A stretch of 64,000 nt of DNA, taken from contig CM067298.1 of NCBI GenBank assembly GCA_034231615.1, positions 60,418,387-60,482,386 on the forward strand. Reading direction: 5' to 3'. Of the stretch, positions 1 through 61,473 are shown piece after piece (the first letter of the stretch is position 1; each line of letters opens with the position of its first letter). The notes under the pieces were generated by a model, which saw nothing but the letters and a program-made list of their open reading frames with translations, was not told the origin of the DNA and did not search any database. The stretch is from Meghimatium bilineatum (Eukaryota > Mollusca > Gastropoda > Stylommatophora > Philomycidae). The position numbers and the translations under genes were made by a program.

Positions 1-165
1 ACACAATTTACAGTGGTCATCCCATGCCCAAACTGTCCAAGGACATTTGTGACTAGAATAGCGCTTATTAACCATCTACGAACTCACAGTAAGTGATATC
101 ACTCTAACTGAATTTCAAAAGTGGATGTAATAATCATCCTACATCATCATCATCATGTGATGAAC
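1..165 (+). mobile_element. LINE 3' end with C2H2 zinc-finger C-terminus, cut by window start
   Basis: Frame 1 reads CPNCPRTFVTRIALINHLRT and then HSK with a stop at 94-96. The spacing C-x2-C-x12-H-x3-H is a full C2H2 finger of the sort that closes many LINE ORF2 proteins. It is followed by a TCATCATCATCAT tail. A host zinc-finger gene is possible but the tail argues for a LINE. Confidence 0.6.
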
Positions 166-166
166 A

Positions 167-330
167 AAAAAAGCATTAAAAAGCGACTAAGGAGGTTTGT
201 ATACACAATCCTGTAGACAGTGATGCAAACATGCCAGTCTCATGTCAATTATGTCGGACCTAAATGCGCAGATATCGCAGCCAAGCTGTAAACCACGACA
301 CAATGCATTATGTTCTTCAGAATATTATTC
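167..330 (+). mobile_element. SINE-1 fragment
   Basis: This is a broken copy of the family seen whole at 38868 and 56568. It keeps gcgactaaggaggt, gcgcagatatcgcag and ctgtaaaccacgacacaa. Confidence 0.6.
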
Positions 331-334
331 GTGT

Positions 335-430
335 GACATTTTATTTTCAGAACGTGCTCTTCTCTATGGCATTTCTGAATTTCTCACAATTCTGGGCGAG
401 ATGGCCTGATGCAGTTGACGATGTGCCAGG
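335..430 (-). mobile_element. LINE 3' end fragment (FREFIGKTTFWKE-type)
   Basis: Reverse frames resemble the end of the LINE at 25055-25353 (HIAQDRERFREFIGKTTFWK) in a decayed form. It lies next to a short stretch reading PGRRGRER on the plus strand, so the piece is rearranged. Confidence 0.4.
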
Positions 431-2049
431 GAGAAGGGGAAGGGAAAGGTACCTCAAGGACATGAGAACCCCCAGAGGACGTTGAGGACGATAAGAACCA
501 AGTCAAAACAATCACTGTAACGTTCGCGAGAGGACATAGGCACAAAGCCATTACACTAATATAAAATAGCGACACAAATATATCGTTGCCAAATACGGTA
601 TAATGCTTTTGTGTAGTCATATAACGCTTTTGTGTGGTCATTGTAAATGTTGGGTACTTAGCACTTACAGAAGTGGCTCATGTAGCTATTTTTCGCATAG
701 TCAGTGTTATGACAGACAAATAACAAGGCGATTAACTGTCCAGACTACTAGGAACCATCTCCTTGTAGTCCGTGACTGTGGCCGGTTGTACTGGGTTAAA
801 TGTTTATCTAGATTGCCATAAAACTCATAGCGACGTGATTTGTTGACATTACCATATTAACTCACACCGACTTAATGATTGTTACATCGAGGTGTTGATC
901 CATTGAAGTACATTAGAAATGACCAATGGCAATTATTATTATTTACTCATTTACGTTTGTGTCGCCATCACAAATGAAAATGCCATTTTTATTGCATGTC
1001 CTTTGTTTGACTACTTCAAAGTCAAAATTTGATGGAATTGATTATCTAGCCGTTTACTTGGTGAGTTAGAGAAGATGTGATCGACATGTCTTGAAGAGAA
1101 AATATTGTAAAATGATTGTAGTAGAATTATGCCAGGGATGTAATGCTATCACTCGTTCTAGATTAGGAGGGGTTTACATGATGAAACATATTCAGTCACG
1201 GGGATTGGGACTCGAACGCAAGTCCAGCAGTAGGGGCAGTCAAGAGTCGGGAGTGGCAGTCAGGCAAGTTGGCAGAAGAGCTGCCAAATTGTTCAAGTGA
1301 AATAGATAGGTTTGAAACATCGGGAAAACGTCTCGAATTCCAGGTGTGAGGATTAGTTTAGAAACTTCTAAATATGTCTAGGATTCTAAGTGTGAGGATT
1401 AGATAATAGTGTTTTTAGACAGTGAATACAAGTGCAAGAGATATGGCGAAAAGAAATTATAATATCATACAAGTGAGAAAGAAACTGAATTTCTTCTGAG
1501 AACGAAAGCTTTGGGTTGCCCCCGTGAAGATTACTAACCTCCGTTACGAGCAGCGAAGATAGATATATGACGATTCTCTAAAATACTATAATATCGACCA
1601 ACAGTTCGCAGTAGCGAAATAACTAAGACGAGTTGTAAGAAGGACGGTCAGAATAAGTAGATTAGTTTGCGATAGCGAACCGTTGAATGCAGACGTTAAT
1701 TCTTAGCAGTAGATCTATATCTATTGATGCAACTATTTGATTTCTAATTTATGTACATAATTGATGCATTATGTTGTGAACTAGTTGATGTATCACAAAA
1801 TAAACATGTCTTCGAGTAAGAAGACGCTGGATGAGACACGTATCGCTTGTATCGTGTTCCTGTTTGAAAGTACATCAGTTGTCAGTGTTCACTGATTACT
1901 TTATATCACTAAATTCACACGTCCACGCCATCGGTTACTTTGAGAGGGGATGTCATCGAGACAACCAGCACAATGAAGTAATTGGAAGGTTATCTTGGAC
2001 CGAAGTCTGAGTTTCAAAGATCATGTTGACACACCATTGTAAGACGTAG
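431..2049. other. Unassigned intergenic stretch
   Basis: No coding pattern, RNA gene or recognisable repeat seen. Short ORFs at 603-821 and 1091-1300 have no family resemblance and no splice context. Confidence 0.5.
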
Positions 2050-3180
2050 AAAGGTCTTGCAGCGATGAAAATAATGACTGCTGCTAAATGTGAACAGAGA
2101 CTGCTATTTCTTCTGTATCAGGGATTGGTAGTGGTGGTGGTGGAGTACACACTGGCGATTCTGACACTGAGTAAGACGCAAACAGAAAGATTGGATAGAA
2201 TCTAGAATGAGGCAATGCGAATAACTTTGGGATGTACGAGAGATACGTCGGCATGGGCCATGCGATACTTACTTTATTGCCCAACTGCAGAGCAAAGAAT
2301 ACAAACGTGCAGGGCCCGGGACTACCTACAAATCACTGCTGATAAACAACACCCTTTACACACTGAAATTCTCAAAGTGAAAGGCAGCCGACTTAAGAGA
2401 GGAAAGACGTGAATGGAGCGCGCAGAGGATATTATATAGAGTGCATGCAGATTGGAGGATGTGCTCTCTGGTGCGGAATCAATTCATGCGCCCTTAGATT
2501 GCCCAACATCCTTCAAAGTAATAATAACACTTAATAGAGAATGCAGGGAATGGTGACCGAGAGTGGTGGAGTTGGAGGTGCTCGTTCTGATCGGTGAGAA
2601 TTCCAGAGAGGGTGATATGATTGTATATACAGAATGGTCGGGCCTTGCCGGCTCATGGTGGGAAGGGGGGGGGGGGAGACCACCAGAGAAGAAGGTGATG
2701 CATTCGCTCAGACGACAAGCAGCATGACAATGGAGATTTTAGCAGTAACCATGGATTTGAAATGGGTGTACTTGGATGCCTGTACACTCAGTGAATCTAT
2801 GAGCATTATTGTGAAAATTCAGGAGGGGCACATTCGAGAACAGTGGCTGGTTGCAGTGAAGAATTCCTGTGTGCGTAAAGTGACTTTTATTTTTGTGCCG
2901 GGACATGCCAGAGTCCATGGTAATGAGAGAGCAGATAGGTTGGCCGTACACGCTGCTACTACGGATGTTGGTGGAGCGATGGATCGAGCAGACATTTTGA
3001 ACGCCCTACGGGAAATGCACGAACAAATGACTGTATAAATGACGATGACTCTTATTCCATGACTAGAATACGGCAGTTTGGTTTGAAATGCTGTGTCGAA
3101 CTAAGCAGAAGAAGAAGACAATTCAAACGTATGATCAATTCAATGTTAAGACTATTTTTCTATAATCAATGACGCACCAA
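2050..3180 (+). mobile_element. LINE fragment: end of RT, linker and RNase H
   Basis: Reads RLDRIQNEAMRITLGCTRDT and SAWAMRYLLYCPTAEQR, the segment after the reverse transcriptase. Then comes an RNase H-like part with TTSSMTMEILAVT, LSESMSIIVKIQEG and FVPGHARVHGNERADRLA. Several frame changes show that it is dead. Other copies of this family end in CPxC..DDxPTxN. Confidence 0.75.
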
Positions 3181-3204
3181 GTCCGATGTGGTCATAATCT
3201 AACC

Positions 3205-3414
3205 TAGTGTTTTCCAACCTATTTCTTACCATGCCCCACCCAAGTCTTTCTAAAATTCTGATGTCCCTTCCCTATGTAACATATACATATTTTTAATATT
3301 TTAAAAATTCAATTATTCCCCAAAATATGATGAATAATTGCACCCTGAATCCCCCCCCCCTAAACAATCAAATTGCCCCTCTGTGGGGTGTGGGCCCCAC
3401 TTTGGGAAACAATG
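3205..3414. mobile_element. Non-autonomous hAT-like element with 8-bp target duplication
   Basis: The ends are tagtgttttccaacc and an imperfect inverse (cattgtttcccaaag). The 8-bp direct repeat atctaacc lies exactly outside at 3197-3204 and 3415-3422. Eight-bp TSDs and this type of terminus are typical of hAT. Confidence 0.75.
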
Positions 3415-3700
3415 ATCTAACCAATCTGTTATCTGGAAAAATCCTGCTGGGTGGTATCAAGCACAGTTACTTCTCAGGATGATCCGAGTTTTTCTGTGCT
3501 TTTCATTGCTAACCGACACAATGTATACGCAAAGTGAACATTTACCAGCCAAAATAAGCGACGCTGTTTAGAATCTGCCACGGACATCTAGATGTATACA
3601 TGGGCGTACTACGGGCGTCACAGAAATGATCAATTTTTACCAAAATTAACTGAAATCCAAGAATATGTTTGTAGACGAGCTCACAGGGATAATCTGGAGA

Positions 3701-4043
3701 CGGACTTGTTATAGACTGAGCAAGTCATGTTATAGGATGTAATCAAGTCATGTTATAGGATGTAATAAAGTCATGTTATAGGATGTAATAAAGTCATGTT
3801 ATAGGATGTGATCAAGTCATATTATAGGCTGTGATTAAGTCATGTTATAGGATGTAATCAAGTCATGTTATAGGATGTAATAAAGTCATGTTATAGGATG
3901 TGATTAAATAATAGACTGTGCTCAATTAATTTTATTGGCTGTCTTCAAGTCATGTTATTGGCTGTGCGCAAGTCATGTTATAGGATGTTATCAAATCATA
4001 TTATAGGCTGTGATCAAGTCTTGTTATAGGCTGGGATCAAGCC
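3701..4043. repeat. Minisatellite, 23-bp unit, about 14 copies
   Basis: The unit is approximately aagtcatgttataggatgta plus 3 variable bases. Central copies are nearly identical and outer copies have drifted. Period is constant at 23 bp with one disturbed region near 3905-3955. Confidence 0.9.
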
Positions 4044-4254
4044 TTAAGTAAAGTTATACTGATATAAGTAGGAACATATTAGAATATAGTATGTATGGAA
4101 AAGACTGACCAGATGAAGTTACAGGAAGCAAGTAAACGAGTGGTTGATGTGAAACACACCTGACTAGACGACCTATTTGACCAATTGATTATAACCATGA
4201 AATGCATTACTAATACATCGAGGATCATGCTTCTCAAGTGACGCAATTGATTTT

Positions 4255-4530
4255 TCCTGCCGCCGTATGTTGCCGGGACCTAAAGGAGAGCAAAGAATAG
4301 CGACACTATTACCTGCCAAGCATGTTGTAAAAGGTGACCAGTGATTTAGGGTGGAGATGAATGTTCATCCAATATATGGTCAAAGTGACACAGAAGCCAT
4401 ATTGAAGATATTATGTTATGCTGAAAGCCGTAGATATCGCAGTAGACTATTGCACAACGAATCCTAGTCTCTGGACTAAATCCTGCTGATCTGCAAAAGT
4501 TTGAGAGGAACGCAGGAGAGGAAGACTTAT
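4255..4530 (+). mobile_element. SINE-1 copy, diverged
   Basis: It starts cgccgtatgttgccgggacc and ends gaggaacgcaggagaggaag. It keeps the order of blocks of the copies at 38868 and 56568, but differs at many positions, so it is an old insertion. Confidence 0.75.
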
Positions 4531-6260: not shown

Positions 6261-6346
6261 GAGCAACATAAAATATATAACAAAAAACAGACAGTGAGAA
6301 TTTGTATGTTTACATTTGCATGTGTAATATCAAATAAATTGGATCC

Positions 6347-6715
6347 TGGGTGTATTGTTGTCGGATCAGATGTCTGGACAGAAAACCTGGGTGTATTGTT
6401 ATCGGATAAGATGTCTGATCAGAAAGCCTGGGTGTATTGTTGTCGGGTCAGATATCCAATCAGAAAGCCTGGGTGTATTGTTGTCGGGTCAGATATCCAA
6501 TCAGAAAGCATGGGTATATTGTTGTCGGGTCAGATATACAATCAGAAAGCCTGGGTGTATTGTTGTCGGATAAGATGTCTGGTCAGAAAGCCTGGGTGTA
6601 TTATTGTCGGGTCAGATATCCAATCAGAAACCCTGGGTGTATTGTTGTCGGGTCAGATATCCAATCAGAAAGCATGGGTATATTGTTGTCGGATCGGATG
6701 TCCGATCAGAAAGCC
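6347..6715. repeat. Minisatellite, nine exact 41-bp units
   Basis: Units begin tgggtgtattgttgtcgg at 6347, 6388, 6429, 6470, 6511, 6552, 6593, 6634 and 6675 with no length change. Two sub-types alternate (gatgtctg versus gatatccaat). All three plus-strand frames stay open, so the long ORFs over it are a by-product of the repeat. Confidence 0.95.
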
Positions 6716-6723
6716 TATCAAGT

Positions 6724-6747
6724 TTACTACTTCAATTGAAGTAGTAA
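6724..6747. repeat. 24-bp perfect palindrome
   Basis: ttactacttcaa is followed directly by its exact reverse complement. It lies 8 bp after the last 41-bp unit. Confidence 0.9.
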
Positions 6748-6789
6748 TCATACTTTCATGGAAACATGACAATGACATTCCAGTTCATA

Positions 6790-13554: not shown

Positions 13555-13660
13555 TTCCAGAAATAAGATATACGGATGACATATTTACTACACATCATGA
13601 GGGAATGAAACAGCTAATTACAACAATTATAAAGGTTACTATAATATCCTATTAATGTTA
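13555..13660 (+). mobile_element. LINE RT fragment with YTDD box
   Basis: Reads IPEIRYTDDIFTTHHEGMKQ and LITTIIKV, the same family as IPEIRYTSDTVLL at 35330 and IPEIRYAKDTILI at 58640 (minus). YTDD stands for the RT catalytic YADD. Confidence 0.65.
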
Positions 13661-13669
13661 AAAACAAAT

Positions 13670-14510
13670 TCATTCATTCATTCATTTTCCTTTTGCGCTG
13701 AAGTTAGGGCATAGGGCAGAGGTCAGATCTCTCCAATTCTGTCTGTTCAAAACTATTCTGTGCAGTTCTTGAATAGTATGAATATTGGTTATTTTACTTT
13801 CTCTAAGAATTGTTCTTCTGAGTGTTTCTTTTGGTCTACCCCTTGCTCTTTTGCCTGTAGGTATTCATTCAAGAGATTGGTGGTGTATTCTGTTGGTGTC
13901 TGCGCGTAGGTTATGCCAGATGTAGGACCAACGGCGTTTTCTGATAACATTTGTGATGAAATTTTGATGTGTCTCTTCTCTGATTTTATCATTCGATCTG
14001 AATTCACTCCAATGGGCGTTAGTTATCATACGAAGACATTTGTTCTCGAAACTCAGTAATTTCTTTTTCTGAAGATAAAGAGCTTTTCCAGCTCTCACAT
14101 CCATATGATAGCACCGGAATAACGCAGGAATTAAATAAGCGCATTTTCGTGAGTGTGCTGATTGACTTTGACTTCCAGATATTAGACAGTCTGTTAAATG
14201 CACTTGATGCTAGGGCAATGCGAGTTGTAATTTCTGTCATGATATCACCGTAGAGTGTTAATTTGCTTCCTAGATAGGAGAATTTGTGTACTTTTTCAAG
14301 TTGTTGTCCATTTAAAGTAATTTCGTTAGGTGAATTTGTGAAGTCCATAATTTTTGTTTTTGATGAATTGATTTGGAGACCTATTTGTCATGCGATGAGT
14401 TTTAATCTATCAGTTTTTGTTTGTGCATCTTGATGGTTTTCACTCAATAGTGCCAGATCATCGGCAAAATCCAGATCTTCTTGTGTTGTTTTATTTATCC
14501 ATATGATTCC
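13670..14510 (-). mobile_element. 5'-truncated LINE with 11-bp target duplication
   Basis: taaaaacaaat lies at 13659-13669 and 14511-14521. The insert reads FADDLALLSENHQ, then KTKIMDFTNSPNEITLNGQQ, KVHKFSYLGSKL, SYGCESWKSS and IRKRRWSYIWHN. It ends in an (AATG)n tail on the minus strand. Same family as 53440-54025. Frame changes show it is inactive. Confidence 0.88.
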
Positions 14511-14516
14511 TAAAAA

Positions 14517-14937
14517 CAAATAGCTAGCAATAAAACAAAGATAATTTTCCACGTCACAGTCCAACAGGGACCTTTCTCAAGGAACACATAATTTTAAAAT
14601 ACCAACAATAACCATACAAATATTTAAAACTGGGATGACTTGGACACGTTTCTCTCACCGCCAAACAATAAATGAAGACATGCATGTCTAGTAAACTGTC
14701 TATCAATAACGCGCAAACATGCTTACATATTGAACGCACGTAATTCGTCATTTACTAGACATGCATTGCACGTCTTCACTTGGTAATGTTTTGTGGTGAG
14801 AACAATGGCCTCCCAGTTTTAAACATTTTTATGTATTTGTGGTCTTTTCCCCCCATTGTTATGTGTTTCTTTAGAAAGGTCTCCGTTGGGCCGTAACGTG
14901 GAAAATTGTCCTTGTTTTATTGCTAGTTATTTATTAT
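14517..14937. repeat. Older PLE palindrome (two 3' ends head to head)
   Basis: Both arms carry ctagcaataaaac, the PLE hairpin block and a long matching interior down to gaagac.tgca..catgtctagtaaa. Arms are about 180 bp (14517-14697 and 14748-14937) with a spacer near 50 bp and clear divergence, so it is older than the palindrome at 17858. Confidence 0.7.
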
Positions 14938-14943
14938 TAACAT

Positions 14944-15508
14944 GAACTAAAATTAAGGCTGGAGATGGCTTTAGCGTCCTTATCAAGGCTAACTGTGATT
15001 TGGAAAAGCAACATCAGTGCTGGAGTGAAAATCAAACTGTATAAGTCGCTGGTGCTTTCTGTTGTGTTGTATGGTTGTGAGAGTTGGACACACACTGAGA
15101 ACATGGAGAGAAGATTACAGGCTTTCGAGTACAAATGCTACAGACGAATTCTACGAATTTCCTATAGGGAACATAAGACCAATGTGTACGTAAGAAATAA
15201 AGTAGAGATGTGTTCAGGAGCCATTGCTTTCAATAGTGAAACGACGAAAACTAGCATGGTTCGGACATGTATGCAGGCACGATTCCTTGTCAAAAACAAT
15301 ACTGCAGGGAACTGTCGAGGGTGGAAGAAGCAGAGGAGGAAAAATAAAGGCATGGACAGACAACATCAAGGAATGGACAGGGCAAGATATTTCCTCACTC
15401 ATCCGAATCGCTGAGGATAGAATTCGCTGGAGGACTCCGTGTGTTGAGGCATCCAATTTGGTACCCCTACGACCCTGAAGGGTTACAGGTTTATAGATAG
15501 ATAGATAA
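14944..15508 (+). mobile_element. 5'-truncated LINE with 11-bp target duplication and TAGA tail
   Basis: attattaacat lies at 14933-14943 and 15509-15519. The insert reads LSRLTVIWKSNISAGVKIKL, SVVLYGCESWTHT, ERRLQAFEYKCYRRILRISY, then (other frame) KLAWFGHVCRHDSLSKTIL and VEGGRSRGG. It ends ccctgaagggttacagg and tagatagatagata. It split PLE sequence in two (see 15582-15640). Confidence 0.9.
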
Positions 15509-15519
15509 ATTATTAACAT

Positions 15520-15640
15520 TGATAGTTAGGATTTTATAGTAACCTTTTTACTTGATTCAGGATTTACCATTTATTCGATTGGTTACTGCGGCACTCTCCA
15601 TTTTGTTGGAACAACCTCTGACATTTTAGTTACTTATATT
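15520..15640 (+). mobile_element. Displaced terminal part of the older PLE
   Basis: ggttactgcggcactctcc..ttttgttgga..cctctgacatttt is the same terminal block as at 21239-21297 and 45012-45069. It was separated from 14937 by the LINE at 14944-15508. Confidence 0.65.
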
Positions 15641-16350
15641 CACAACAACGAAATACAGTGAGATCCAAAATCTAGGCCTGTATCTAAACGCACAGAAAAC
15701 ACAAATTGTGACAACAGGCAAAACAACGATCAAACCGATTATCAAAAGAGACAATATAGAACTAGTATGTGTAAACAAATTCAAATATCTGGGAGCAAAT
15801 ATAAATAGTTCCAGAGATTGTTCAGTTGAGATTAGGAAAGGACAAGCAATTGCAACACTCAAATGAACACAAATGCGGTGACAAAGTAGTAATAGTGACA
15901 CTAAAGTAACTCATCTAAGATCATGTGTTTTCCCACTGGCAACATATGATGCGAGACTTGGACTTTAAACAAGACAATACCCAAAAGAATAAATCCATTT
16001 AAAATGAAGTGCCACAGAGAGATCCTTTGAGTATTATGGACATAGAAAAAGAAGAACATTGAAATTTTGAAACTACTGAAGCTAAATAAAGGGTGGTTTC
16101 TAAATGCAATCATAAGAAGGAAGTTACAGTAATTTGAACACTTAAGGGACACGATGTTATCGAAAGGCTGATTCTGGAGGACAGAGTTCCAGATGAGAGA
16201 AGAGGAAGATCAAGAAGACGACGGACCAGCAACATCAAAGAATGTATGAACATGTCACTGGCCAATATAGGCCTGCTTGCCTGGAACAGAGAGGCGTTCA
16301 GAGTATCCATGATGAAGACAATATTCTGGCAAGAATATGCCACTTGAGAT
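15640..16350 (+). mobile_element. LINE fragment: RT thumb to C-terminus
   Basis: Frames give NAQKTQIVTTGKTTIKPI, CVNKFKYLGANINSSRD, then LKLLKLNKGWFLNAIIRRKL and FWQEYAT near the end. Many stops. Family of 25055, 36016 and 335. Confidence 0.65.
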
Positions 16351-16380
16351 ATGCCACTATGTTTAAAGATATTATCTGTG

Positions 16381-16740
16381 TAGATATTAAATAGGTTGGG
16401 TGATAATTGTCTTAACCCTCTGCTTATTTCTATGTATGATGAGTTGCTGTTTTCTCACCTTATTGATGTAGTCTGTTCCCAATATATATATATTTCTAAT
16501 CAGTCTGGTGCCTTTTCCATCTATGCCTATTTCTTGAAGACTTTTGATTAATTTTACGTGTTGGACTCTGTAAAAGGCCTTGCTGTAGTCTATGAAGAAA
16601 ATATAGGTACTTCTTTGTACTTCTATATATTTATCTATCAACAGTCGGATACTTAGTATAGCTTCTCTGGTTCCTGTTTTTTCTAAAACTGAATTGCTCT
16701 TCACCTCAGTGTCTATTCTTGTTTTTAATTCTTGTAAGTA
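16381..16740 (-). mobile_element. LINE reverse-transcriptase palm fragment
   Basis: Reads KTGTREAILSIRLLIDKYIE, YIFFIDYSKAFYRVQHVKLI and KSLQEIGIDGKGTRLIRNIY. FIDYSKAF is the first catalytic-aspartate region of RT. Lies inverted relative to the LINE pieces on both sides. Confidence 0.8.
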
Positions 16741-16749
16741 TTATTAACA

Positions 16750-17390
16750 TGGAATAGAAGATTATATACATGAAAAATTCATGGAAACAGAAAGAGGAAC
16801 CAGATGGATTTCATTATGATCAACAATAGATTTAGAAATAGTGTCAAGAACACTAAAACATATCCAGGAGCTGATATCAACTCTGACCATAATCTAGTGC
16901 TGTGCAAAATACATGTTAAACGTAAAAGGATAAAACATAGAAGAAATCAATATCCATAGGTAGACACATCAGCACTAAAACAACAAAAACAACAAGATAT
17001 ACAGCAAAAATACCTTGTAGATGTGAGGAACAAATATGAACATCTAATAATATAGTGTGTGGAACAATACAGAAGGGAGAATGCAGAAGAGAAAATGGAC
17101 AATAAATGGGACATCTTAAGGACATTCAAATATCAAATGAAAATTTACCAATAAGACAAGCCAAGAACAAACAAACACAGATAATGGATATAATATTAGA
17201 GAAAATCTCAGAAAGAAAGCTAAAAATACCCCAAAACATTCACTTATACACAAAGAGATATGCAACTGGTGCGGAACAGCGAATGAATAATGGCTAGAAA
17301 CAAAATGCAGAGAAATAGAGAAGATGTCCCTACAACAGAAGACAAATGAAATGCATAAGGATAAGACAGATCACAAATAAGAATTTGGGG
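16750..17390 (+). mobile_element. LINE endonuclease-domain fragment (SDHNLV)
   Basis: Reads QMDFIMINNRFRNSVKNTKT and YPGADINSDHNLVLCKI, the end of an apurinic-type endonuclease domain (SDHN motif), followed by the Lys-rich linker towards the RT. Confidence 0.75.
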
Positions 17391-17394
17391 ATCT

Positions 17395-17470
17395 CCCTAG
17401 CGCAGTGGTTAAGATGTTATTCCTGTTCAAGAGGTCATAGGTTAGAAGGATGAATTTTTTTCTGATTCCT
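17395..17470 (+). mobile_element. tRNA-derived SINE head, decayed
   Basis: ctagcgcagtggttaagatg resembles an A box (compare tagtgcagtggttagagcac at 26858), with a weak B-box region at ggtcataggttagaag. Not a usable tRNA. Confidence 0.4.
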
Positions 17471-17484
17471 GTGGATTATCACTT

Positions 17485-17800
17485 GAAGTTACAGAATTAT
17501 GTGTATATTAGTGGTTTTGTCCATGATATTCTAAGAACCTCTCTATAACAATCCATTTCGAATGCCAATATTTTCTTTTCCATTGGAGATGTCATTGCCC
17601 ACATCTCACAATCATATGTTGCCAATGGAAAGATATTGCTTCTTAATAATTGTAATTTTGTTTTATGTGGTCATCATGAGTTTCTTGACATTGTATACAT
17701 CTCAATAGTTTTACATTGCATTCTGAGCCGGTTCTGGTCGTGTATAAGTTACCGTCCTTTATCCACCTTCAGCTCAATATAGGGCCTTTTCAACTGCTGT
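17485..17800 (-). mobile_element. LINE RT-thumb fragment
   Basis: The reverse frame reads LLRSNIFPLATYDCEMWAMT and MEKKILAFEMDCYREVLRIS, a standard LINE segment. A sister piece lies at 57380-57530. Confidence 0.65.
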
Positions 17801-17857
17801 CTTCGAAGCCGTTGTCAATAATACAATCATCTGTCTTCTCCACCAGCAGATATGTGT

Positions 17858-19550
17858 ACAAATAGTAATGCAAAATGATGTAAAAAGGTTACAAAAACAC
17901 TTACCTAGCCTATTAATAAAAATATATTTTTAAGAAAAAAAAAAAAAAAAAAAAAAAAAACATACAATAAAACGAAACAGGACAATTCTCAACATATCGG
18001 CTCAAATTGAACCTTTTTCAAGAGACAAACAACAGAAAACGACAAAATAAAAAAATAAATAGATGTCTATATTTCATCAAGCCCTCGTCTCCATAATAGC
18101 GCAGGGATGGCAACGCATCTAGTCAAAGTGAAAATGCGTGCATTCATTATAAACAAACCGAAAGTGGGAAATTAGAGACACTATAGATGAGTGCAAGAAT
18201 AATAAAAGAAAAAGATAAGAAAAATACCCCTTTTGTCACTCTATCAGACAGGCAGGTTTTAAGAACATAGTCACAACAGGCACGACTGAAGGGAACAGAG
18301 ACAGATGGGGACGTGAGAAAATATTCATGTGACAACCTAGCAAGGCTTGGAAACAACGATCCTGATAACAATACTGTGAACAGAGAACCATGGTCACCTA
18401 CGCCAACAAGAATGGCATATGACAATGACAGATGAGTAATGATGAGGTTGTGTGGTGGTGGGGTGAGTGGGTTTGGGGAAGGAAGGATAGAAGAAGAATC
18501 AACATTTGAAAACGTATGGAATGAATGTGAAACCAAATATAGACATAAACATATATATTAAACCAAACCTAAACATACATAGAAATGTAAACACACACCA
18601 AGAGTCAAGAAATAAACACATAACAAGATGGACACAGATGTGTGAAGGATACCCACACAAAATGCACAGGCATGTAAATGTATCCACACACAGGAAAGGG
18701 CTCACACCAGAATAGGTATACACGTTGACACAGAATGGAGATACGTGCATTAACATAAAAAAGCGCTCACATAAATATACATATATATATCTATACACAA
18801 ATATGAACTTTCATGCACATAAACACTTTCTCGTATAAATAATAACATGAACATTCATACACATAGAAACATATACATATATTAATGTAAATATAAACGT
18901 TCGTTCACATAAAGATAATGCTATAACAACTGCATATGTATACATACAAATGTGTGGCCCAAAGTAATTGTGTGGATACATAGAACCATGTAAAACGAAA
19001 TGCATATACAAATAACTATATATGTGTGGGCACCCATCGAAGAGACAACTGCAATAAAAACGAGGAAATCAAAATCTAAATATGTAAATGATTTAACAAT
19101 AACAAAATGGCAGAGTACAAAATAATCACATATTGACATACACAAACGAAAGAAGACATAAAGGAATTATATAGAAGAACGGCAAACACAAAAATAATAA
19201 TTATTCACGAAAGTGTACAAAGACAAATAATTACAAGAATCAGTGCAATACGGGAGTAGAGGGTATAAAGAAAAGGTGGGTAACTCAAACAAAACGGTGA
19301 TTAATGTTCATTCCGTTTGGTTGCAAGACTCCCATATGACAAATGAGACGATATTCCAAGGACTGACGTTGCCGGTCACCGGTATAACAACGTAACAAAC
19401 CGGTTACAGAGACATCAGAGCTACCATGATGTGACGGGCTGTTAAAATGATTAGCCACTGGGGAGTCACGATGATTCGTGATATCTCTCAAATGTTCGGC
19501 GAATCTATCAGCTAAACGTCTACCAGTCTCACCAATATACTTCATATCAC
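17858..19550 (-). mobile_element. Penelope-like element 3' half (left arm)
   Basis: On the minus strand: GIY-YIG domain from the centre outward, about 1.3 kb of apparently untranslated sequence, then the PLE hairpin block (cttgaaaaagg..gagccgatatg) and gttttattgtatg with an A/T run. The RT half of the element is absent. Confidence 0.85.
19285..19545 (-). pseudogene. PLE GIY-YIG endonuclease domain, N-terminally cut (left copy)
   Basis: Reads MKYIGETGRRLADRFAEHLR, VANHFNSP and LEYRLICHMGVLQPNGMN, then a stop. This is the C-terminal GIY-YIG nuclease module of Penelope-like retroelements, which nicks target DNA. The palindrome centre falls just before the YIG half of the motif, so the GIY half and the whole RT are missing. 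Confidence 0.85.
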
Positions 19551-19561
19551 GAATAAGCGTT

Positions 19562-21300
19562 GTGATATGAAGTATATTGGTGAGACTGGTAGACGTTTAG
19601 CTGATAGATTCGCCGAACATTTGAGAGATATCACGAATCATCGTGACTCCCCAGTGGCTAATCATTTTAACAGCCCGTCACATCATGGTAGCTCTGATGT
19701 CTCTGTAACCGGTTTGTTACACCGGTGACCGGCAACGTCAGTCCTTGGAATATCGTCTCATTTGTCATATGGGAGTCTTGCAACCAAACGGAATGAACAT
19801 TAATCACCGTTTTGTTTGAGTTACCCACCTTTTCTTTATACCCTCTACTCCCGTATTGCACTGATTCTTGTAATTATTTGTCTTTGTACACTTTCGTGAA
19901 TAATTATTATTTTTGTGTTTGCCGTTCTTCTATATAATTCCTTTATGTCTTCTTTCGTTTGTGTATGTCAATATGTGATTATTTTGTACTCTGCCATTTT
20001 GTTATTGTTAAATCATTTACATATTTAGATTTTGATTTCCTCGTTTTTATTGCAGTTGTCTCTTCGATGGGTGCCCACACATATATAGTTATTTGTATAT
20101 GCATTTCGTTTTACATGGTTCTATGTATCCACACAATTACTTTGGGCCACACATTTGTATGTATACATATGCAGTTGTTATAGCATTATCTTTATGTGAA
20201 CGAACGTTTATATTTACATTAATATATGTATATGTTTCTATGTGTATGAATGTTCATGTTATTATTTATACGAGAAAGTGTTTATGTGCATGAAAGTTCA
20301 TATTTGTGTATAGATATATATATGTATATTTATGTGAGCGCTTTTTTATGTTAATGCACGTATCTCCATTCTGTGTCAATGTGTATACCTATTCTGGTGT
20401 GAGCCCTTTCCTGTGTGTGGATACATTTACATGCCTGTGCATTTTGTGTGGGTATTCTTCCCACATCTGTGTCCATCTTGTTATGTGTTTATTTCTTGAC
20501 TCTTGGTGTGTGTTTACATTTCTATGTATGTTTAGGTTTGGTTTTATATATATGTTTATGTCTATATTTGGTTTCACATTCATTCCATGCGTTTTCAAAT
20601 GTTGATTCTTCTTCTATCCTTCCTTCCCCAAACCCACTCACCCCACCACCACACAACCTCATCATTACTCATCTGTCATTGTCATATGCCATTCTTGTTG
20701 GCGTAGGTGACCATGGTTCTCTGTTCACAGTATTGTTATCAGGATCGTTGTTTCCAAGCCTTGCTAGGTTGTCACATGAATATTTTCTCACGTCCCCATC
20801 TGTCTCTGTTCCCTTCAGTCGTGCCTGTTGTGACTATGTTCTTAAAACCTGCCTGTCTGATAGAGTGACAAAAGGGGTATTTTTCTTATCTTTTTCTTTT
20901 ATTATTCTTGCACTCATCTATAGTGTCTCTAATTTCCCACTTTCGGTTTGTTTATAATGAATGCACGCATTTTCACTTTGACTAGATGCGTTGCCATCCC
21001 TGCGCTATTATGGAGACGAGGGCTTGATGAAATATAGACATCTATTTATTTTTTTATTTTGTCGTTTTCTGTTGTTTGTCTCTTGAAAAAGGTTCAATTT
21101 GAGCCGATACGTTGAGAATTGTCCTGTTTAGTTTTATTGTATGTTTTTTTTTTCTTAAAAATATATTTTTATTAATAGGCTAGGTAAGTGTTTTTGTAAC
21201 CTTTTTACATCATTTTGCATTACTATTTGTTCATTAGGTTACTGCGGCACCATCCACTTTGTCGGACACCCTCTGGCCATTTGGTTATTTAGATATGTGT
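19562..21300 (+). mobile_element. Penelope-like element 3' half (right arm plus terminal block)
   Basis: Same content as the left arm in the opposite direction. It continues past the palindrome limit (21230) into ggttactgcggcaccatcc..ctctggccatttggtta at 21239-21297, the terminal block shared with 15582 and 45012. The left arm lacks that block. Confidence 0.85.
19567..19819 (+). pseudogene. PLE GIY-YIG endonuclease domain (right copy)
   Basis: Starts with the same MKYIGETGRRLADRFAEHLR. It is the mirror copy of 19285-19545 and differs by an 8-bp length change about two thirds of the way along. Confidence 0.8.
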
Positions 21301-21754
21301 ACAGTAGCTTCAGGTAGTTCAGCCGACTAGCCAAGGTCATTGTCCGGGGGATTGGAGCAGCTGTACACAAGCAGATTCATGGAGCCATACATGAGCGTGG
21401 AGTGTGGGAACCAAATAGAATCTTGGCCTTCCCGAGGGGAAGTGGCTGCTACTCACCATGAGGTACTATCTCTACACACTATAATAGACCTATTAGTATA
21501 TTTTTGTCTTGAATTAGGTCTCACTTCCAAATAATTACTATTAGAAATACACATGAGTGTTAATGGCACAAATAAAGACAGTTTCACTTAATATAATTAA
21601 AATATAAAAAGAAAACATAATGGTACTATAGGCCCATATGTTTGTAAAGTTTATCTTTATTATCCACAGCATGCACTTCACACATGAAATTCCTAATACT
21701 TATGTACAACACAAATTTAATGAGTTCTACAATGAACGCACAGACTATACTGTA
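21301..21754. other. Unassigned stretch
   Basis: A 64-codon ORF at 21340-21534 has no family resemblance. Nothing else recognised. Confidence 0.35.
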
Positions 21755-22030
21755 TTGGCACCGGAAAAAAAAATAACAGTATACAAGACATTTTCAATGT
21801 ATGAACCTTAAGGTCTTTTTCAAGAAAATAGTGAACAAACAGTAAAAATAATGGTACTATCACAAAAGCATTAGACAGCAGGTATTAAACAATAGAGATG
21901 TCCAACATAACAATGACACTTGTGTACACAAGTATTGTTAGAGATGCACAAAATACAAGGGAAATGAGAAAAGAATAAAATAACTATACCTGTAAACAAC
22001 ATAAACGATAATACAATGAGTCCTACCACA
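21755..22030 (-). mobile_element. Penelope-like element 3' end fragment
   Basis: The minus strand carries cttgaaaaagaccttaaggtt, the PLE hairpin block with a perfect GACCTT/AAGGTT stem, near 21800-21835. Confidence 0.5.
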
Positions 22031-22299
22031 TCAAAATCTAAATAAATGAATGATCAGAATTAAGACCAAAAGGCTTATGGGTATCAAACTGAAACATATA
22101 CAGATATGCCTATATATTAATTTCCTAAGCATGTCTCGTATCGGGTGGGGGGGGGGGGCATTAAATGTATGTATGGCCTGCCAATACATGCATGTGAGAT
22201 ACACAATGCTGTAAATCTGTATCAATATGGAAAATTTGTATTAGTTAACACCTATGGCCTTGTGTCATGAGGTTATGGGTTCAAAATCTCCTTCTACTT

Positions 22300-22541
22300 C
22301 AGTGGTTTTCAACCTTTTTTCACATATAGCCCCACTTGTTGATAAATTTCTTCTGTCGTTCACCTGAGACCTAAAAGACCTGCTTATGAACTTTGTTAAA
22401 CGTTTATTATTATATATTGGTTAAATATTATACAAATAGTTATATTTCTGTGGCTCTCCTAGATTATCTGTATCCTCCCCCCTACAATATTTTCTTTGTG
22501 GCTCTCTAGGAAAATGCTGTGGCCCATGTTGAAAATCACTG
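22300..22541. mobile_element. Non-autonomous hAT-like element
   Basis: cagtggttttcaacc at the left and the inverse of ccagtgattttcaac at the right are classic hAT-type termini. Flanking target duplication is no longer clean. Confidence 0.6.
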
Positions 22542-22718
22542 GTCTAGTGTACAAGAACATATATTTACATGCTGGAGATTATTGCTTGAGCAATTTATGT
22601 GTTTTGAGGGATACTCTTTGTAGCCAGTGAGCTGCTTTATTGAAAAGGACAGATCCGGGGAAATCTCAGCAAATGAAGTCAATTCTCTGCACTTTCTAAA
22701 CCACATATTATATATTAC

Positions 22719-23558
22719 AAACTAAACCTCCTTGATTAGGCGGAGCAATATACAGCAACTTTCTCTCCGCTGAATATTGTGGGGTCATCTTCTTCAATTC
22801 TGCACTTGAGGTTACAACCTCTTCTAACTTCTCCTTAACTCTTCTTATCTAGGTACTCTAAGCCTCACCACTCTTCTCTTACTCTGTAGAATCTGTGTTC
22901 TTATTAGTTATTTGTTGTCATAATGATAGAATGTTCAATGCATTACCCCTTTCTTTAAACTCCAGTTGAATCAGTTTTTGACATGTTCTCTTCCATAGAT
23001 CTGTATTTATTATCATTTCTAAACATCTGATACAGGATAGCTTATGTGGCAAAGACATAACAAGAAAGACAAATAGATACAAAATATCTTCTAAGTCAGA
23101 TGTGTTGGGTCATTGACACAAATAAAAAGTGACAATGCATTTCCTTTTGTTTGACTAGATCCTGATGAGACATCTAGTAGGACCATTTTTAAGTTCATAT
23201 TGCTTATTCCATATAGTCATAGGCTTTTGTATTTTTTTGTTTACACTCTGTAATAAAAAGATTTGTGCTTAAAATACTCAATTACTAGATGTATGTAAAA
23301 CTGATCCTACTTCCTACTTTCTGAGTTTGTTCTGTCTCAAACATAGGCATTTGTGACTGAAATGATAGGAAAGATTTCACACAGGAGAGTTCTACAGAGT
23401 AAGAGAAAAGTGGTTCTCAGAGTACCTAGAGAAGAATAGTTAAGAGAAGTTAGAAGAGGTTGGAATCTCAAGTGCAGAATTGAGGAAGATAACTCCTGAA
23501 ATATTCAGCAGAGAGAAGTTGCTGTACATTGCTCCACCTAATCAAGGAGGTTTAGTTT
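22719..23558. repeat. Dispersed repeat present as inverted pair
   Basis: The left arm at 22719-22891 (aaactaaacctccttgatta to actctgtagaa) recurs inverted at 23390-23558 with about 85-90 percent identity. A further segment (tctgtctc.aaca.aggcatt) is directly repeated at 23331 and 23561. Family not recognised. Confidence 0.75.
23091..23190 (+). mobile_element. SINE-2 fragment
   Basis: gtcagatgtgttgggtcatt and gacaatgcatttcc..ggaccat match SINE-2 (see 23880). It lies between the arms of the inverted pair 22719-23558. Confidence 0.6.
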
Positions 23559-23879
23559 CTTCTGTCTCGAACAGAGGCATTTATGACTGTAATGATAGAA
23601 ATATTTCCCTCAGGAAAGTAGAATAAGTTACATAAAACTATTAGAATTGATGGAAAATGTTGGCAACTCCTAAAGATCAGAAACTTCTCAAAAGGGAAGA
23701 AGCATATTTTTTAAAAGGAATCCTACCCTGCTCCTATAGCAAATTCATACTTATAGCCCTGATTATAGAGCATATTTAAAGCTGCCACTGCTCTGCTTCT
23801 TCTGTTTGTTATTATTTGGAAGTCCTCATTGTATTTTTACAAATTATATAATTCCAATACCATCATAAATTACACCCAG

Positions 23880-24022
23880 CTGAAGATGGATGTGTCAGGT
23901 CATTGACACAAATAAAATGGTGACAACGCATTCCATTCTCTGGACTACAACCTGCTGGAAATCTAGTAGGACCATTGTCCTGCTAGAGGAGTGAGAATGA
24001 ACACAGAAGAAGAAGAAGATAT
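23880..24022 (+). mobile_element. SINE-2 copy
   Basis: gaagatggatgtgtcaggtc, gtgacaacgcattcc, ctctggactac..cctgctggaaatctagtagg, then a gaagaagaagaag tail. It shares its 3' part with SINE-1. Confidence 0.75.

Positions 24023-27900: not shown

Positions 27901-61473
<33,573 letters not shown>

Follow-up and report, generated by a model that had tools for sequence, protein, structure and literature searches.

A near-perfect 3.4-kb palindrome is a head-to-head Penelope-like element dimer within a single target-site duplication

The palindrome at 17858–21230 of the window (the whole 64,000-nt stretch of DNA analyzed) is confirmed as real, and both of its arms came in between one target-site duplication (TSD), which makes it one insertion and not two. 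Our verdict is that the structure is a single-event dimer of a Penelope-like element (PLE), belonging to a general kind that is already known but unusual in the length and symmetry of its arms. We consider it reasonably probable that a 5′-truncated PLE of the endonuclease type was inserted once, as a head-to-head dimer, by double-ended target-primed reverse transcription.

An inverted-repeat search returned blocks of 1443 nt at 99% identity, 159 nt at 100% around an 11-nt center and 102 nt at 95%. The left arm (17858–19550, minus strand) is a 5′-truncated, tail-less PLE copy with its 3′ end pointing left, and the right arm (19562–21230, plus strand) is its mirror copy with the 3′ end pointing right; the center between them, GAATAAGCGTT, occupies 19551–19561. 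Outward from the center, the stem is perfect for 159 bp. In the gapped alignment of the arms, 1662 positions matched and 8 did not; one of the 8 (19551/19561) belongs to the edge of the center. The arm substitutions therefore number 7 in 1669 aligned positions, or 0.42% (95% Poisson range 0.17–0.86%), and comprise 4 transitions and 3 transversions by hand count from the alignment. Two length differences complete the comparison: a poly-A/T run of 26 versus 10 that accounts for 16 bp, and 8 bp at 19384–19391 (minus strand) in the left arm that are missing from the right arm. The initial annotation had described a near-perfect 3.4-kb palindrome with arms of about 1.67 kb and an 11-bp center, and the inverted-repeat search and the alignment both bear this out. 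Its estimate of about ten substitutions and two length changes was accurate for the length changes, and the substitutions come down to 7. Its reading of the arms as two Penelope-like 3′ parts set head to head is also upheld, but the arms are not equal, because a 60-nt tail is present on the right only. With this tail and a 13-bp TSD on each side, the structure reaches beyond the palindrome first annotated. Rfam microRNA matches across the center were rejected; they lie below the gathering scores and are as expected from any perfect hairpin.

The TSD, AGATATGTGTACA, is perfect over 13 bp and adjoins both outer ends of the element as one pair that encloses the two arms. The left copy lies at 17848–17860, its last three bases (ACA) being common to the left arm as well, and the right copy at 21291–21303 adjoins the tailed end. 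When both strands were searched, AGATATGTGTACA was found at just these two places in the 64,000-nt window. As a control, random pairs of equal-size stretches were compared, and 33 of up to 20,000 pairs had some 13-mer in common; adjacency to element ends was not demanded, and pairs less than 500 nt apart were skipped yet kept in the total. Because this single pair flanks the whole palindrome, one insertion is indicated, and the case of two independent insertions with separate duplications, which the initial annotation had named as the finding that would speak against its reading, is contradicted. Palindromes are also a known class of artifact, and the structure could in principle have come from assembly or library preparation, as a missing-adapter read or a chimera. 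We hold such an origin to be very improbable: the mirror halts at the element ends and excludes flanking DNA, there are 7 substitutions and two indels between the arms, both arms share one TSD pair and only one of them carries a tail. A simple read artifact in particular is disfavored by the TSD pair, the arm differences and the ending of the mirror at the element ends.

Each arm contains the C-terminal end of a Penelope GIY-YIG nuclease followed by 1.4 kb of 3′ region. In the left arm, the end of the nuclease open reading frame (ORF) stays open to its stop codon (19285–19560, minus strand, 91 aa). The same coding end in the right arm (19558–19728, plus strand, 56 aa) is frameshifted to an early stop, the frame ending after 56 codons because the 8 bp are missing. 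A degenerate YIGETGR pattern identified two stretches in bacterial and archaeal genome contigs, L001 and L002. L002 (positions 1–4335) is a 4.3-kb contig of an Ignavibacteria MAG with a Penelope ORF encoding reverse transcriptase (RT) and GIY-YIG and with a repeated 99-nt start; we think that it is probably contaminating eukaryotic DNA. Pfam recognized RVT_1 (6.4e-12) and GIY-YIG (3.8e-5, residues 751–791) in its 847-residue ORF. The arm protein aligned with this ORF from residue 765 (34% over 62 residues, E 5e-5 in a single comparison), with YIGETGR in common. By homology, then, each arm begins inside the GIY-YIG domain, in agreement with the initial annotation, and the arms would lack the RT because, in the L002 layout, it sits upstream of the truncation point. 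The C-terminal GIY-YIG endonuclease, which marks endonuclease-containing PLEs, is thus represented through the L002 alignment. Two further PLE marks are present: a TSD of the variable length seen in these elements, here 13 bp and perfect, and a head-to-head inverted partial copy inside one TSD pair at 17858–21230.

The inner ends of the arms differ slightly. The right frame, which starts in the center, reads Cys (RCDMKYIG) where the left arm reads Arg (LIRDMKYIG). Since this Cys lines up with the second Cys of CKNC in L002 and the Arg of the left arm does not match it, the right arm probably retains a few more upstream nucleotides than the left arm, as judged from L002 in place of a family consensus. 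The 11-nt center, upstream of GTGATATGAAG, may belong to the right arm as a native overhang, or be filler or a hairpin loop.

Other searches for relatives of the arm protein returned little. Alone (86 residues), it had no Pfam match at E up to 1, and a PDB sequence search gave one match, at an E value of 0.96, which is not meaningful. The AlphaFold model of the 91-residue protein had a pLDDT of 45 and was discarded. Among viral contigs, no relatives were detected by the arm protein, the degenerate YIGETGR pattern or the L002 protein. Direct (tandem) pLTRs were likewise not seen, there being no direct repeat of at least 60 nt in 16000–24000. PLE structure is described as variable (PMC11167929 and PMC3846280); tandem pLTRs were not taken as defining for a truncated copy, and 5′-truncated copies may be without them.

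The 60-nt tail (21231–21290, plus strand) runs past the point at which the left arm ends, and related 3′ ends elsewhere in the window suggest that this difference is not peculiar to the palindrome. Used alone as a query against the window (E up to 1), the tail matched 15581–15635 (80%) and 45014–45066 (75%) besides itself. Six PLE 3′ ends were examined within the window. Expressed in arm positions and as local-alignment ends, three of them stop at 21230–21238 and three at 21290–21294, although this tally leaves out weaker window matches to six PLE pieces used as queries (E about 2e-4 to 0.05, including 39701–39787, 45768–45838, 33412–33504 and 57672–57743) that could shift the 3-to-3 split. 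The tailed ends are at 21290, about 15636–15639 and 45067. The tail-less ends are at 17858, about 13603 and 42653, the latter two equivalent to about 21235 and 21238. Two of the six are separate old PLE 3′ ends found by sequence match, one tail-less (42653–42864, minus strand) and one tailed (44836–45067, plus strand). The tail was then scored past five ends, the end that supplied it being excluded. It scored 33 and 28 past the two other tailed ends (0 of 1000 shuffles; 0.0015 of 2000 window stretches) and 5, 6 and 8 past the three tail-less ends (shuffle P 0.998, 0.913 and 0.338; window P 0.997, 0.88 and 0.30). Two alternative 3′ end points with a tail between them, a further PLE mark, are therefore found here, three ends of each kind among the six. 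The weak match at 45768–45838 (67.6%, E 2.7e-4) is to the tail region of the 45067 end and could be a very old further tailed end.

These ends also bear on two explanations that do not involve PLE dimer formation at insertion. In a DNA transposon of foldback or MITE-like type, the arms would be terminal inverted repeats of 1.67 kb, enclosed, as here, by a TSD. Its inverted termini would also be equal, but one end of the palindrome is 60 nt longer than the other, the ends match other PLE-like 3′ ends, and the nuclease end encoded in the arms is of the Penelope GIY-YIG type. Furthermore, the two open frames of at least 120 codons in the arms (18147–18557 and 20403–20957) gave no hit to any Pfam family at E up to 1, Pfam being the only transposase search made. 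We regard a transposon of this type as extremely improbable. Inverted duplications can also arise by template switching during repair or replication, and a single-arm insertion might have been duplicated in this way at a later time. Such a two-step history appears highly unlikely, given that the outer limits of the palindrome coincide with the 3′ ends of the element and the TSD and do not lie within flanking DNA, and that the left arm stops at a recurring PLE stop point.

A second, older head-to-head PLE dimer lies at 13603–15639 and is broken by two inserts. By alignment, its left arm consists of an outer piece with the tail-less end (13603–13668, minus strand) and an inner piece (14511–14695, minus strand), and its right arm of an inner piece (14751 to about 14943–14945, plus strand) and a tailed outer piece (15510–15639, plus strand). 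The inner pieces are identical at 149 of 175 ungapped columns (199 with gaps), and the outer pieces, compared as 13603–13668 (minus) and 15500–15580 (plus), at 52 of 60 (69 with gaps). Each insert has its own duplication, 10 bp in the left arm (TAAAAACAAA, at 13659 and 14511) and 11 bp in the right (ATTATTAACAT, at 14933 and 15509). Judged by eye from their reading frames, both inserts are LINE-like; Pfam found DUF6451 in the left one and nothing above the cut-off in the right. The older dimer shows the same asymmetry as the young palindrome, tail-less on the left and tailed on the right, and its inner ends begin at a homologous point on either side of a 55-nt spacer. A TSD was looked for around 13603–15639 and not found.

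The separate ends at 42653 (minus) and 45067 (plus) are likewise head to head, tail-less on the left and tailed on the right, 2 kb apart with other elements between them. They could be a third old dimer, at 42653–45067, but were not counted as one: the likeness upstream of them was that of random pairs (P 0.45, n 386), and shared flanking words reached 6 nt at most. No TSD was found at either end taken separately, with shared words of 8 at most. Between these two ends lies a (TA)n-type palindrome (43952–44091) with no spacer and 70-nt arms at 93%.

Double-ended target-primed reverse transcription would produce the young palindrome as follows. The element protein would cut the target in a stagger, leaving 13-nt 3′ overhangs. 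The right-hand 3′ end of the target would prime at a distal start site to yield the tailed right arm, and the left-hand 3′ end (...TGTACA) would prime at a proximal start site 60 nt upstream to yield the tail-less left arm. Both cDNAs would halt at nearly one point in the nuclease ORF, where the template RNA probably ended, and would then be joined via the 11-bp center. Three of these steps are inferred: that both strands primed, that the cDNAs shared one template end and that end joining took place at the center. Counted in favor of double-ended priming are the one TSD pair, the tail on the right only, the recurrence of two stop points and the equal asymmetry of the older dimer, and the ACA common to the left junction and the target would fit short primer pairing. 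Against it, independent cDNAs need not halt within 11 nt of one another, which means that a shared RNA 5′ end has to be assumed, and the sample is one young and one old dimer, the old one with no recognizable TSD. Nor are one tailed and one tail-less arm obligatory, as follows from the Anolis PLE known as PAc, for which the two strands showed no difference in start site (PMC11167929). PAc prefers ATT-containing, AT-rich cut sites (PMC11167929), and no such preference is evident at the joined flanks of the palindrome (100 nt, 54% A+T versus 64% in the window).

The coincident inner ends require either a template RNA that ended there or fold-back copying. In the latter, a tailed cDNA or an antisense transcript would fold with an 11-nt loop, copy itself and join the target 60 nt short. 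Self-priming of this sort would account directly for the common inner end and for a loop of a mere 11 nt, and has been suggested for palindromes at the inverted junctions of PLEs (PMC3846280). However, it would allow a tail on the primary arm only, and it leaves unexplained the recurring tail-less stop point, which is shared by the left arm of the older dimer and the end at 42653. We therefore view fold-back copying as unlikely. A template RNA that ended at the inner point is also part of a reading that we put forward tentatively, in which one 5′-broken RNA was copied by two reverse transcriptases in convoy, each starting from a different target strand, one at the proximal and one at the distal (tail) start site, and both ran off the same RNA end. 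If true, this would account for one-tail dimers, for inner ends within 11 nt and for arms that were near-identical at birth, and symmetric dimers would always carry exactly one tail.

If neutral rates between 1e-9 and 3.6e-9 per site per year are assumed, the arm divergence of 0.42% corresponds to an age of roughly 2.1 to 0.6 My; the faster rate was back-calculated from an octopus distance and time pair (PMC13282606). None of the 7 substitutions is closer than 826 nt to the center (P about 0.009, post hoc), and 5 of them cluster in 209 bp (P 0.016, post hoc). At about 160 nt from the center, by contrast, lies the 8-bp difference, which shows that the arms have not been kept perfectly alike. 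Some of the differences could predate the insertion if the arms had two different template RNAs. The palindrome may be very young, or its arms may have been kept alike by gene conversion.

A two-helix hairpin was predicted upstream of the tail from six aligned rows, two of which are the near-identical young arms. From its core layout, we term this hairpin hammerhead-like. It lies at 21079–21117 (plus strand) in the 3′ region of the right arm, by prediction on the aligned rows, and at 17987–18025 (minus strand) in that of the left arm, hand-mapped from alignment columns 15–53. Of its 10 predicted pairs, 2 are changed on both sides and 4 are broken in at least one row. Rfam gave no hammerhead match at gathering score in the whole window, and none at E up to 10 in 17700–21450 or 14400–15000, which cover two of the four loci.

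Several other features were observed in the window. Tandem arrays with 23-bp and 41-bp units occupy 3663–4087 and 6306–6756, respectively, the latter within an open frame of 247 codons that encodes repeated GCIVVGSDIQSE-like peptides. A dispersed repeat is present in three copies that are 84–92% alike (2891–3098, 32436–32603 and 44301–44522). The frame at 2616–3038, which overlaps the first of these copies, encodes a motif that resembles the RNase H end of a retroelement. Upstream of both PLE end points, the word AGGTAAGTG at 21182–21190 resembles a splice donor by eye; intron retention by PLEs is mentioned in PMC3846280.

With its 3.4-kb length, 11-bp center and 0.42% divergence, the palindrome is a candidate for studies of long-palindrome stability in nuclear DNA. 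In the 5′ inversions made by L1 twin priming, the element RNA is primed by both 3′ ends of the target and the inversion lies inside one TSD pair, with the two pieces derived from different parts of one RNA. Unlike the products of twin priming, both arms here span the same 1.67 kb.

The closest published structures are those of the Penelope elements of Adineta vaga (Pen2a_Av and relatives). In PMC3846280, these are head-to-head inverted parts, in several cases with a short TSD around the whole, an optional short tail on one inverted repeat and palindromes at the inverted junction, as is the case here. The head-to-head form is given there as the most frequent inverted arrangement, and our window has a second, old dimer of this form; what is unusual in the palindrome is the length and symmetry of its arms. 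The inverted part in the A. vaga copies described is usually a pLTR of about 180–220 bp beside a longer element, with longer inverted overlaps in two Pen3 contigs (PMC3846280), whereas the arms described here have a length of about 1.67 kb, mirror each other symmetrically and begin within the nuclease ORF. In searches of a CC-licensed PMC library, none of the listed titles and abstract openings described a PLE palindrome that is both long and symmetric. For head-to-head copies, the 2013 A. vaga study suggested self-priming (PMC3846280).

The other comparison is with PAc, the Poseidon PLE of Anolis carolinensis. Frangieh et al. (2024) showed in vitro that purified Anolis PLE protein cuts both strands of the target and extends them, and that reverse transcription begins at two neighboring internal sites, the genomic tail being the stretch between them (PMC11167929). 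PAc thus resembles the element described here in having two adjacent 3′ end points with a tail between; its tail is 30–40 bp, compared with 60 nt here, its hammerhead ribozyme is a recognized one, whereas ours is a hammerhead-like predicted hairpin, and no palindromic dimer is described for it in the main text (PMC11167929). The steps that follow two-strand cutting and internal starts were left for validation by that study (PMC11167929). The mode of PLE integration is unsettled, and the locus speaks to both proposals in natural DNA through its single TSD pair, its one tailed and one tail-less end and its coincident inner ends; counts of tails and inner ends over all dimers of a PLE-rich genome would be a test of two-ended priming versus fold-back copying. 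The tail pattern of the palindrome matches the two start sites and two-strand priming of the Anolis protein.
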